This document shows positions 37,120-39,903 of a DNA stretch of 64,000 nucleotides, one piece after another. The notes beneath the pieces are model-generated. The model saw only the letters and a list, made by a program, of their open reading frames with translations. It did no database searches and was not told the origin of the DNA. The stretch comes from Rhodospirillales bacterium (GTDB taxonomy: Bacteria > Pseudomonadota > Alphaproteobacteria > SP197). Position numbers and translations under genes: made by a program. Position 1 is the stretch's first letter, and each line of letters begins with the position of its first letter. The stretch is taken from NCBI GenBank assembly GCA_014323865.1, contig JACONG010000010.1, forward strand, positions 310,001 through 374,000, written 5' to 3'.

Positions 37120-37695
37120 TCAGGGTTTGCCGTCGTCGGGGCCGGGATGGGGATGGGGCTCGAATGTGTTCCCGTCCCCGGGCTCGAGGACCATGACGTC
37201 CTCGTCGGGCTCTTCGTCGGGTTTCCCCGGCAGTTCGCGCCGGATGTCGACCTCGCTGGTGAATTCCAGTTTCGTGCGCGATTGACCCCGTTCGTCCTGC
37301 TCGAGCCGGGCCATCAGCTCGCTCGCCAGGCCCTCGGCGCGTTCGGCGGCCTCCTGCAGTTCCGAAACCGTCTGCCTGTCGTAGGGGAAGGCGAAGACAC
37401 GCGGTTCCCCGGCGCCGCCCATGTCGAACCACAGGAAGATCGCCCGGTTCTCGTGAATATCGTAGGCAATCACCTTGCGATACCCGGTGAAGCTCTCGAG
37501 AAACGCCGTGCCGGCCGGTTTGGGGCGGCCCAGCAGTTCGGTGACGGTCACGTAGCCGGCGGGGATCAGGGCGAGCAGGGCGAGGGTGGCGACGGTCTTG
37601 CGCCAGGTCCTGCCCTCGGTGGCGATTGCCATCCAGGCGATCACGGCCACCAGCAGGAAACAGACGACAAAGGCGACGGGTGCGAGCGGCAGCAC
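37120..37695 (-). CDS. Two-TM protein with charged cytoplasmic tail, third gene of channel module
   Basis: A 191-residue protein I cannot assign. It starts with a hydrophobic helix (about residues 5-25) and a second one (about 35-50), then a soluble part with FLESFTGYRKVIAYDIHENR and an amphipathic, charged helix region (about 110-140). The last 40 residues are Glu/Asp/Pro-rich with a PHPHPG ending. It lies four bases after the single-TM protein gene and two bases before sfsA, so it is in the channel operon. A stator-assembly or signalling role is only a guess. Confidence 0.6.
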   Translation of the reverse strand: MLPLAPVAFVVCFLLVAVIAWMAIATEGRTWRKTVATLALLALIPAGYVTVTELLGRPKPAGTAFLESFTGYRKVIAYDIHENRAIFLWFDMGGAGEPRVFAFPYDRQTVSELQEAAERAEGLASELMARLEQDERGQSRTKLEFTSEVDIRRELPGKPDEEPDEDVMVLEPGDGNTFEPHPHPGPDDGKP

Positions 37696-37699
37696 GGGC

Positions 37700-38305
37700 C
37701 TAGAGCCTTTGGGTGTCGAACAGCGAACGGAAGAGGCTGTTGACCGTGTGGGGCAACAGCCCTCCGGCTTCGTTGAGATCGAAGCGCACCACGGTCTCCT
37801 CCTGATCGATGCGGACCAGTTCGACCTTGCGGATCAGGATCTCCCTGGCCTTCCTGTCGATGTCGACCTTGGTGCTGACCACGACATGGACCGGCACGGG
37901 CCAGATCCCGGTGTCGTTGCGGTACATGTGGATGTTGACGATGTATTCGCCCTCGGGCACCCCGCGGCTGTAGGCCATCTCGTGGTTCGAACTGGTCAGG
38001 TCGTTCCTGCTGCCGAGATCGTCGCGCAGCAGGTCGAAAATGCCACCGCCCCGCTGCGACCAGCCGACCGCACCGTCGCCCGGCGCCTTGACCCAGAGAT
38101 CGACATCGGCATCGATGTCTTCGGGCCACCTGATCTCGACAATCACGTTGCCGGGCGTCATCAGGTCGTCGGTTTCGGTCTCCGGCGGGTTGACGTGGGG
38201 CAACAGCAGGATCACCAGCGCCACGAAGCCGAGCAGCGCCAGAAGGATGACGTCGCGGAAGACGGTGGCCGCGGCGTCGTCGTCGAGCGGATCAAGCGCC
38301 TGCAC
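37700..38305 (-). CDS. Single-TM periplasmic protein, ExbD/MotB-position partner of an ExbB-like channel
   Basis: A 201-residue protein. After a short acidic N-terminus comes one membrane helix beginning FRDVILLALLGFVALVILLL, with an Asp at the cytoplasmic start, as in ExbD, TolR and MotB. The rest should be periplasmic: EIRWPEDIDADVDLWVKAPG is like a DUF2135/YfaP-type beta domain, followed by GVPEGEYIVNIHMYRN. No peptidoglycan-binding OmpA motif or ExbD fold is seen. The gene overlaps the ExbB-like gene by 14 bases, which supports a shared complex. Confidence 0.6.
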   Translation of the reverse strand: MQALDPLDDDAAATVFRDVILLALLGFVALVILLLPHVNPPETETDDLMTPGNVIVEIRWPEDIDADVDLWVKAPGDGAVGWSQRGGGIFDLLRDDLGSRNDLTSSNHEMAYSRGVPEGEYIVNIHMYRNDTGIWPVPVHVVVSTKVDIDRKAREILIRKVELVRIDQEETVVRFDLNEAGGLLPHTVNSLFRSLFDTQRL

Positions 38306-38966
38306 GGTCTTCGCCCAGCTCCACGATGGTGTTGATCAGACGCACCGTGCCGGTGGACAGGAGCTGGTAGTTCGCCATCAGCCAGATGTTGAGCACGCCA
38401 CCGACCAAGGTGGTGGTGAGCGCGGTCGACATGCCCGAGATCAGCGCCGAGACCATCGGGCCGATGGCCTCGGTCTCGCCGGCGCGCTGCGGATCGACAC
38501 CCGACAGTGCGATGATGAAGCCGATCACCGTGCCGATCAGGCCGAGGAAAACCAGGCTGGCACCGAGATGGCGGACGATGGTGATGTTCTGGGAGAGTTC
38601 CAGCCTCAGGGCCGATCCCAGAATCTGGCGGCTCTGGGCATCCTTGCCGGTGGTCCTGGCGACGAACGTGGCCGCTCTGGAGCGCCGGGTCGGATCGAAG
38701 CTGCGTGCCAGGTTGAGCTGGCGGCTGGTCCAGACCACGCGCCACAGGGCAAGCAGGAGACCGACCGCGAAAACGATGTCGATGATCACCACGAAGTTGG
38801 TCTCGTCGGCCTCGAAGGCGCGCTGCACCAGGCCGTTGGCCCAGGCCACGGTGAGCAAGGCCAGCGCCACGATGTTGAGCAAGGCGAACCGGAACAGCAG
38901 CAAATGGCTGTGCGGGTCGCGCGAACGCGCGGTGAGGGCTGTTTCGGCCTCGGCCGCTGAGGCCAT
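38292..38966 (-). CDS. MotA/TolQ/ExbB-family proton channel protein
   Basis: A 224-residue membrane protein. Two helices near the N-terminus (about 25-45 and 55-75) are followed by a cytoplasmic loop and the family hallmark: LGASLVFLGLIGTVIGFIIA, then SALISGMSTALTTTLVGGVL with the Thr/Ser-rich ion-path helix. It should form a ring around a single-TM partner to turn proton flow into force. ATG 38966 is chosen because upstream codons do not look coding. First gene of the leftward operon channel / single-TM / two-TM / sfsA / map / radC. Confidence 0.85.
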   Translation of the reverse strand: MASAAEAETALTARSRDPHSHLLLFRFALLNIVALALLTVAWANGLVQRAFEADETNFVVIIDIVFAVGLLLALWRVVWTSRQLNLARSFDPTRRSRAATFVARTTGKDAQSRQILGSALRLELSQNITIVRHLGASLVFLGLIGTVIGFIIALSGVDPQRAGETEAIGPMVSALISGMSTALTTTLVGGVLNIWLMANYQLLSTGTVRLINTIVELGEDRAGA

Positions 38967-39126: not shown

Positions 39127-39903
39127 ATGTCCCAGATCATGACGTCCCAGACCGTCACCGCCGCCGTCCTCGTGATCGGCAACGAGATCCTCTCGGGCCG
39201 CACCCGGGACGCCAATGTCGCGTTTCTGGGCAAGAGCCTGAACGAACTCGGCATTCGCCTGATGGAGGTGCGGGTGGTCGCCGATATCGGGGACGAGATT
39301 GTTGCGGCGGTGAATGCGCTGCGCCGTCGCTACGACTATCTCTTCACCACCGGCGGCATCGGCCCGACCCACGACGACATCACGGCCGACAGCGTGGCGG
39401 CGGCCTTCGGTGTCGGCATCGAGGCTCACCCCGACGTCTACAGGCTGCTCAAGGATCACTTCGAGAGCCGCGGCATGGAGGCCAACGAGGCCCGCATGCG
39501 TATGGCCCGCGTGCCGGACGGGGCGTCGCTGATCGACAACGAGATCAGCCTGGCACCGGGCTTCCAGATCGAGAACGTCTTCGTGCTCGCCGGTGTGCCG
39601 TCGATCGCGCGCGCCATGTTCCAGGGTGCGAGCAATCGTTTGCGTCGCGGTGCCGTCGTCCTTTCACGCTCGATCTGCGTCCATTGCGGCGAGGGCACCA
39701 TCGCCGAGCCGCTTGCCGGCCTGCAGCAGCAGTTTCCCGACGTCGACATGGGCAGCTATCCCTGGAGCAGGGACGGCACGTTCGGCACCAGCCTCGTCCT
39801 CCGGGCAACCGACAGGAACATGCTGGACACGGCGTTCGACAGGGTTTTCGCCGCGGCCGCCGCGGTCGGAGGCGATCCGGTCGAAGAGGCGATGGCGGAT
39901 TGA
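39127..39903 (+). CDS. CinA-like molybdopterin-binding domain protein
   Basis: A 258-residue protein with only the MoCF/CinA N-terminal domain: AAVLVIGNEILSGRTRDANV, then LRRRYDYLFTTGGIGPTHDD, ITADSVAAAFG and IENVFVLAGVPSI. CinA N-terminal domains have been linked to ADP-ribose pyrophosphatase activity; the C-terminal PncC (NMN deamidase) domain is absent, as in many short CinA homologues. Start ATG 39127 or 39139 cannot be decided because no ribosome site is clear. Divergent from the channel operon. Confidence 0.85.
   Translation: MSQIMTSQTVTAAVLVIGNEILSGRTRDANVAFLGKSLNELGIRLMEVRVVADIGDEIVAAVNALRRRYDYLFTTGGIGPTHDDITADSVAAAFGVGIEAHPDVYRLLKDHFESRGMEANEARMRMARVPDGASLIDNEISLAPGFQIENVFVLAGVPSIARAMFQGASNRLRRGAVVLSRSICVHCGEGTIAEPLAGLQQQFPDVDMGSYPWSRDGTFGTSLVLRATDRNMLDTAFDRVFAAAAAVGGDPVEEAMAD

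Follow-up and report, generated by a model that had tools for sequence, protein, structure and literature searches.

Three adjacent genes of a Rhodospirillales bacterium probably encode one inner-membrane, proton-driven envelope motor of the 5:2 type. The original prediction of an uncharacterised ion-driven motor is supported by the family of the channel subunit, by a conserved aspartate in its partner and by the linkage of the channel and partner genes. From these we infer the complex, its stoichiometry, proton flow, ion-driven movement and a role in the envelope. The trio would extend the few known ion-driven envelope motors by a widespread, self-contained member whose output domain and third subunit are not seen in the others. 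Related machines drive flagella and the uptake of iron.

Genomic context and bacterial distribution of the trio

The window, i.e. the whole stretch of DNA that we analysed, comprises 64,000 nt (positions 310001-374000 of contig JACONG010000010.1) of a 2.82 Mb genome. The three open reading frames lie head to tail on its minus strand. The channel gene (window positions 38292-38966; ATG at 38966, stop ending at 38292) encodes 224 aa, the partner gene (37700-38305; GTG at 38305, stop at 37700) 201 aa and the third gene (37120-37695; GTG at 37695, stop at 37120) 191 aa. As originally described, the channel stop and the partner start overlap by 14 bp (38292-38305, minus strand, read from the sequence), and the gene for a small protein with two transmembrane (TM) helices follows the partner. 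The predicted RNA fold upstream of the channel gene is unremarkable. With a G+C fraction of 0.656, the trio is close to the window value of 0.645 and thus shows no sign of recent import.

The trio is followed by sfsA, map and radC. On its other side lies a divergent cinA-like gene (39139-39903), a pairing that is kept across the window's family. In this family, the trio sits between the cinA-like gene and sfsA; elsewhere its position differs. The fixed position suggests that the trio was inherited in the family and not freshly acquired. In one sub-lineage (loci L031 and L032), ∼1.5-2.7 kb separates the third gene from sfsA, while both are directly adjacent in other family members. The trio had initially been assigned to a house-keeping operon with sfsA, map and radC. 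These neighbours are real, but they are conserved only within the window's own family. Since they change outside it, we reject a functional tie of the trio to these genes.

Searches with the partner detected it in 27 of 96 relatives, including all members of the genus searched. A partner profile matched 48 of 289 well-assembled genomes of the class, with ∼40 strong matches, and 15 of 299 genomes of the phylum; some genomes with the partner measure just 1.4-1.8 Mb. Among named genomes, a scan found at least 551 relatives, of which 80 loci were taken for neighbourhood analysis. These loci come from Rhodospirillales, Geminicoccaceae, Kiloniellales, Azospirillum, Skermanella, Tistrella, Mesorhizobium and SAR116, with a few from Thiobacillus and gammaproteobacteria. 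Channel and partner are present in 80/80 loci and the third gene in 79/80, a contig end accounting for the one gap. The next commonest neighbour family occurs in 21/80 loci; nothing else is conserved within ±6 kb, and no conserved neighbour in this range names a substrate. The unit is thus the trio itself and not the surrounding operon. It is a free-standing module that is not tied to sfsA, map and radC.

Full-length partners, comprising TM helix and beta domain, have the channel gene in the locus wherever there is enough flanking sequence, nearly always directly upstream. This is the reverse of a partner usually found without the channel, the pattern that had been named as speaking against a motor. 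In L109 and L113 the gene order is changed, with the channel at another place in the same stretch. A distant group of partners (25-33% identity) keeps all three genes in the loci tested.

Some genomes, among them those of Mesorhizobium kowhaii and Skermanella aerolata, hold two partner copies (L089 with L092, L081 with L098, G092, G289 and G296). Three loci filed under Gemmatimonadaceae, Parcubacteria and Patescibacteria (L073, L084 and L095) contain a trio of the alphaproteobacterial type and probably represent mis-binned contigs or transfer. The Azospirillum plasmid records lack usable annotation.

Architecture of the three subunits

The channel protein (38292-38966, minus strand) belongs to the MotA/TolQ/ExbB family. 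It has four predicted TM helices and matches PF01618 with E 7.2e-11 and 42.4 bits, against a curated Pfam cut-off of 22.9, which confirms the family membership proposed when it was described as an ExbB/TolQ-like proton channel. The cytoplasmic loop between TM2 and TM3 is short (∼50 aa) and, judging by hydropathy and charge pattern, holds the positive charges of the protein. The GxxGT motif and the TM4 TT of the PF01618 family are present, placing conserved Thr and Gly residues in the last two TM helices. In an alignment of 47 channels, the expected pore-lining residue T186 of TM4 (codon 38409-38411, minus strand) is Thr in 46 and Ser in one, and T146 of TM3 (codon 38529-38531, minus strand) is Thr in 42 and Asn in four. 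Besides the channel gene, the host genome has a single PF01618 gene (E 3e-37), taken to be TolQ from the strength of the match; no further ExbB or MotA was found in this genome.

The partner (37700-38305, minus strand), for which 71 homologues were aligned, has a short acidic N-terminus, one TM helix and a predicted periplasmic beta-sandwich. In an AlphaFold2 model (mean pLDDT 82.9), a helix at residues 11-38 is followed by nine strands and no later helix. The ExbD/MotB-style helix with a leading Asp, first noted in the original prediction, is present as the motif FRDVILLALLGF at residues 16-27. Its aspartate, D18 (codon 38252-38254, minus strand), is expected to carry protons. An N-terminal TM helix with a conserved Asp, encoded beside a channel gene, is what characterises the partner subunit of a 5:2 motor.

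D18 is invariant in two partner alignments (A1, 22 rows; A2, 72 rows), and among 154 aligned partners from bacteria and viruses it is Asp in 145 of the 153 that reach this column. Lack of conservation at this position had been named as grounds against the motor, and it is restricted to eight rows that form a single clade (family f159, L142-L149, from genomes of 6-9 Mb). Here, the partners read PFDPLGVMLF in place of the usual PFTDLLF, with the Asp four residues earlier and about one helical turn further out. The displaced Asp may reflect either a shifted proton site or a loss of coupling in that clade.

The periplasmic domain of the partner is supported as a beta-sandwich related to DUF2135/YfaP. 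For this domain (residues 53-189; 37739-38149, minus strand), comparison with a DUF2135 alignment in hhalign gave a probability of 95.9% (E 6.2e-9). In a long protein (G442:C3), the partner profile and PF09906 independently match the same stretch. We base the call of kinship on the positive hhalign result and on this coincidence of profiles. The window partner itself has no DUF2135 (PF09906) match in hmmscan against Pfam at E ≤ 5, and the best PF09906 score among partner homologues is E 0.08, in a distant homologue. The DUF2135/YfaP-like domain that had been proposed is therefore supported by profile-profile comparison, though invisible to hmmscan. An acidic cluster (D67, D69, D95, D96 and E109) is invariant in 154/154 partners, as are W60, R94, G98, R114 and G119.

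Searches for related structures returned nothing below E 0.001 for the partner model in Foldseek and nothing below E 0.18 for the partner profile in PDB sequences. A structure comparison (VIA) ranked three TerD structures first (Z 10.4, 9.5 and 9.1), with rmsd values of 4.0-4.4 across 131-142 residues (4.4 across 142 for the top match). Despite this resemblance of the predicted structure, sequence kinship with TerD is unsupported by profile comparison (hhalign against PF02342, probability 0.2%), and a TerD-like metal site in the partner domain may be treated as a lead only. Other domains were considered and discarded. There is no Pfam match to ExbD/TolR (PF02472) at E ≤ 5, and the model is all strands after the helix. 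An OmpA-like peptidoglycan-binding domain of the MotB/ZorB type gave no family match, and an alpha/beta vWA domain is ruled out by the lack of any helix beyond residue 38 in the model.

As a control, DUF2135-like proteins with other N-termini (L029, L155-L159) have no channel gene adjacent, within the stretches examined. Several of these proteins (L029:568-1860, L156:1228-2247, L157:1018-1971, L158:886-2091 and L159:501-1844) combine a TM helix, a long proline-rich linker and a C-terminal DUF2135-like domain. These alphaproteobacterial proteins have a TonB/TolA-like layout with no channel gene nearby.

The third protein (37120-37695, minus strand) is predicted to consist of two TM helices followed by a small alpha/beta domain in the periplasm (AlphaFold2, mean pLDDT 82.1). 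The loop between TM1 and TM2 has a net charge of at least +2 in 78/80 homologues, which places the loop inside and the C-terminal domain in the periplasm. A PDB sequence search with this protein was empty, and Foldseek gave nothing below E 0.1. The best VIA match of the domain (Z 6.5) is to eIF5A-type domains, which we judge to reflect a common arrangement. The modelled domain thus appears to lack a convincing known fold, which does not establish the fold as new. Neither the partner nor the third protein has a convincing family in Pfam, NCBIfam, PADLOC or PHROG.

Copies of the trio in phages and viral contigs

A tblastn search with the partner against 50,697 phage records gave matches limited to Rhizobium and Sinorhizobium phages (10 records); with a phage copy as query, 26 records were found, some of them duplicates. 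The three genes occur complete and in order in every phage locus examined. Those of phage 16-3 are p038 (channel, 138 aa), p040 (partner, 178 aa) and p042 (third, 141 aa). The same trio is found in phages NV1.1.1, AP-16-3, RHph_X2_25 and RHph_TM3_3_14B, in the 68 kb phages RHph_N3_13 and N3_19 and in the 171 kb phage RHph_I1_18. In Innesvirus P10VF and AF3, it is flanked by the topoisomerase gene and the gene for the late sigma factor. The rhizobial phages with the trio represent three types or more (16-3-like, 68 kb and Innesvirus). Two annotated starts look too late: that of the AP-16-3 partner (L288:3312-3803, OP484857), which falls inside the TM helix, and that of the N3_19 channel (L286:2652-2993, MN988527), which lacks TM1 compared to its relatives.

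The phage channels are minimal, with 138-158 aa. Several phage and viral channels independently reach PF01618 above the cut-off. Others stay below it, namely the 16-3-type channels (E 0.14) and, by a small margin, those of P10VF and AF3 (E 6e-4). The phage channel, partner and third proteins tested against PHROGs match no family beyond one weak match. In IMG/VR, 209 relatives were found. Among the best 80 of these, 73 have the channel and 74 the third gene, with many of the gaps at contig ends, and the whole trio is present in ∼70. A gene for the terminase large subunit lies near the trio in 16 of these contigs, which supports a viral origin of those contigs.

Neighbourhood analysis across the 80 bacterial loci and the phages finds the trio co-conserved, and this joint conservation of three proteins is far beyond chance. 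The tree built from 154 partners splits into two deep clades, both of which contain bacteria and phages. The host/phage label requires nine changes on this tree, at least five of them forced by well-supported branches. Judging by this tree, exchange of the trio between bacteria and phages is old and repeated.

Genes for trypsin-like proteases occur in 16/80 viral and 2/80 bacterial loci (Fisher p 0.0007, although related contigs are not independent), and most reference phages have one near the trio. In phages of the 16-3 type and in contigs related to them, the protease gene adjoins the trio, and its product has, to judge by the sequence, a signal peptide or a lipoprotein signal. Examples are L199:4187-5086 (16-3 p036), L229:4725-5426 and L233:4534-5193, the latter two with lipoprotein-type signal sequences. 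Endolysin or lysozyme genes lie within ∼5 kb of the trio in seven loci. In a marine group, a nucleotide-sugar gene directly follows the trio in 17 contigs; a few kb downstream, 16 marine contigs have a terminase gene. These contexts were not seen in Innesvirus. The phage and viral neighbourhoods agree only in pointing to the envelope.

Searches of the openly searchable literature gave no description of the bacterial trio or its phage copies, and nothing on DUF2135 with ExbB, on phage-encoded ExbB/TolQ motors or on bll5685 of Bradyrhizobium. A term search of the AP-16-3 phage paper found no mention of ExbB, proton or trypsin.

On balance, we favour the view that several unrelated phage lineages encode a complete, proton-driven envelope motor of three proteins, among the smallest of the ExbB/TolQ/MotA type and both shared and exchanged with alphaproteobacteria. 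If true, a phage-encoded envelope motor would represent a previously undescribed class of phage function. The phage copies pose the testable question for what purpose a proton-driven motor is brought into the host, and channels of ∼140 residues would be useful for finding the minimal parts of the machine. Genetically tractable systems exist in Sinorhizobium phage 16-3, Rhizobium phage P10VF, Azospirillum and Bradyrhizobium.

Proposed mechanism, alternatives and known motors

Channels of the PF01618 family form rings around a pair of Asp-bearing helices and are thought to turn with ion flow (PMC9389320). By analogy, the channel subunits of the trio would form a ring, presumably a pentamer, with two partner helices occupying its pore. 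D18 would bind and release protons facing the conserved threonines of TM3 and TM4, and proton flow would move the ring relative to the axle. The part that moves would present two DUF2135/YfaP-like beta-sandwich domains in the periplasm, as either a moving or an anchored output. Beside them, the small periplasmic domain of the third protein would make it a likely coupling or anchoring subunit that stands in for TonB/TolA or for a cell-wall-binding domain. The likely job of the motor would be mechanical work on an envelope component, or the sensing of one. Bacteria appear to inherit the trio as a stable unit, and phages carry a minimal version, with which they probably alter the host envelope during infection.

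The complete sets in phages, which are known to carry defence systems, pose the question whether the trio is a Zorya-like motor that senses envelope disturbance at phage entry and that phages use against competitors. The channel does show weak similarity to ZorA models (best E 4e-5). However, its scores of 12-14 bits compare with NCBIfam cut-offs of 100-700, it has no long cytoplasmic tail, and no nuclease, helicase or other effector is conserved alongside the trio. The fixed place between the cinA-like gene and sfsA across the family and the presence in 1.4-1.8 Mb genomes are also unlike a mobile defence island, and we regard such an anti-phage or inter-phage role as unlikely. Zorya itself had been dismissed from the start for want of an OmpA-like domain and a helicase; this holds, as ZorA stays below its cut-offs and no ZorC/ZorD or ZorE is conserved next door. 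The enrichment of trypsin-like proteases in viral loci, their closeness to the trio in most reference phages and the nearby endolysin or lysozyme genes would instead fit a phage device, later domesticated by bacteria, in which proton flow drives or times outer-membrane damage together with the protease. Against such a lysis or envelope-disruption role, the Innesvirus trio is flanked by genes for a topoisomerase and a late sigma factor, and in the 16 marine contigs with a downstream terminase and the nucleotide-sugar gene the trio is likewise not part of a lysis cassette. Moreover, the full sequence constraint on the motor residues exceeds the needs of a hole, which leaves this explanation just as doubtful.

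Another arrangement would be a regulated proton or ion channel without rotation, whose periplasmic domains act as a ligand-gated plug. The present evidence from genes and sequences is compatible with a system without movement, and the invariant acidic cluster of the beta domain could bind metal and gate the pore. The family precedent (PMC9389320) and the strict association with a partner that bears an Asp helix speak for a motor, however, and make a gated channel rather improbable. The trio might also be one more conventional TolQR/ExbBD set, supplying energy to Tol-Pal or to a transporter of the outer membrane, given the same channel family and Asp helix and a host with just the one other PF01618 gene, the presumed TolQ. 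Yet Pfam does not place the partner in ExbD/TolR, its domain differs in being all-beta, neither a TonB/TolA-like gene nor a transporter is a conserved neighbour, and the third protein is unlike the single-TM TonB. We consider this reading very improbable and prefer the proton-driven three-protein motor.

This motor shares with ExbBD, TolQR and MotAB (PMC9389320) a PF01618 channel with threonines in TM3 and TM4 and a downstream gene for an Asp-helix partner. It differs from them in its periplasmic domain, in its third subunit and in a minimal cytoplasmic part with four TM helices, and it has neither TonB/TolA nor a peptidoglycan-binding domain. With ZorAB of Zorya it has in common the PF01618 channel, a single-TM Asp partner and a link to phages, but it falls below the ZorA cut-offs and has no ZorA tail, OmpA-like domain or ZorC/D. 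The beta domain follows the YfaP/DUF2135 (PF09906) pattern W..D.DL.V..P.G...D...G...E...P.G.Y.V. The DUF2135 proteins compared differ in their N-terminal regions, and their detection did not start from a channel, whereas in the trio one protein combines the domain with the motor helix. Non-flagellar A/B pairs whose domains vary are also known, as the generic ion transporters (GIT; Puente-Lelievre et al. 2025, PMC12505986). In the sections consulted, GIT B subunits have a compact peptidoglycan-binding fold, and a DUF2135-like partner is not mentioned.

The nearest published idea is the system of Williams-Jones et al. 2025 (PMC12204202), in which a TolQ-like channel works with a TPH-vWA partner, without TolR/ExbD, and for which direct force transduction is proposed. 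Both systems have a linked tolQ-like gene, a single helix with a proton-carrying Asp and a domain other than ExbD/TolR. In the TPH-vWA system this domain is a vWA domain and the genes are mostly heterologous pairs, whereas the trio has an all-beta, DUF2135-like domain, a third protein with two TM helices and copies in phages.
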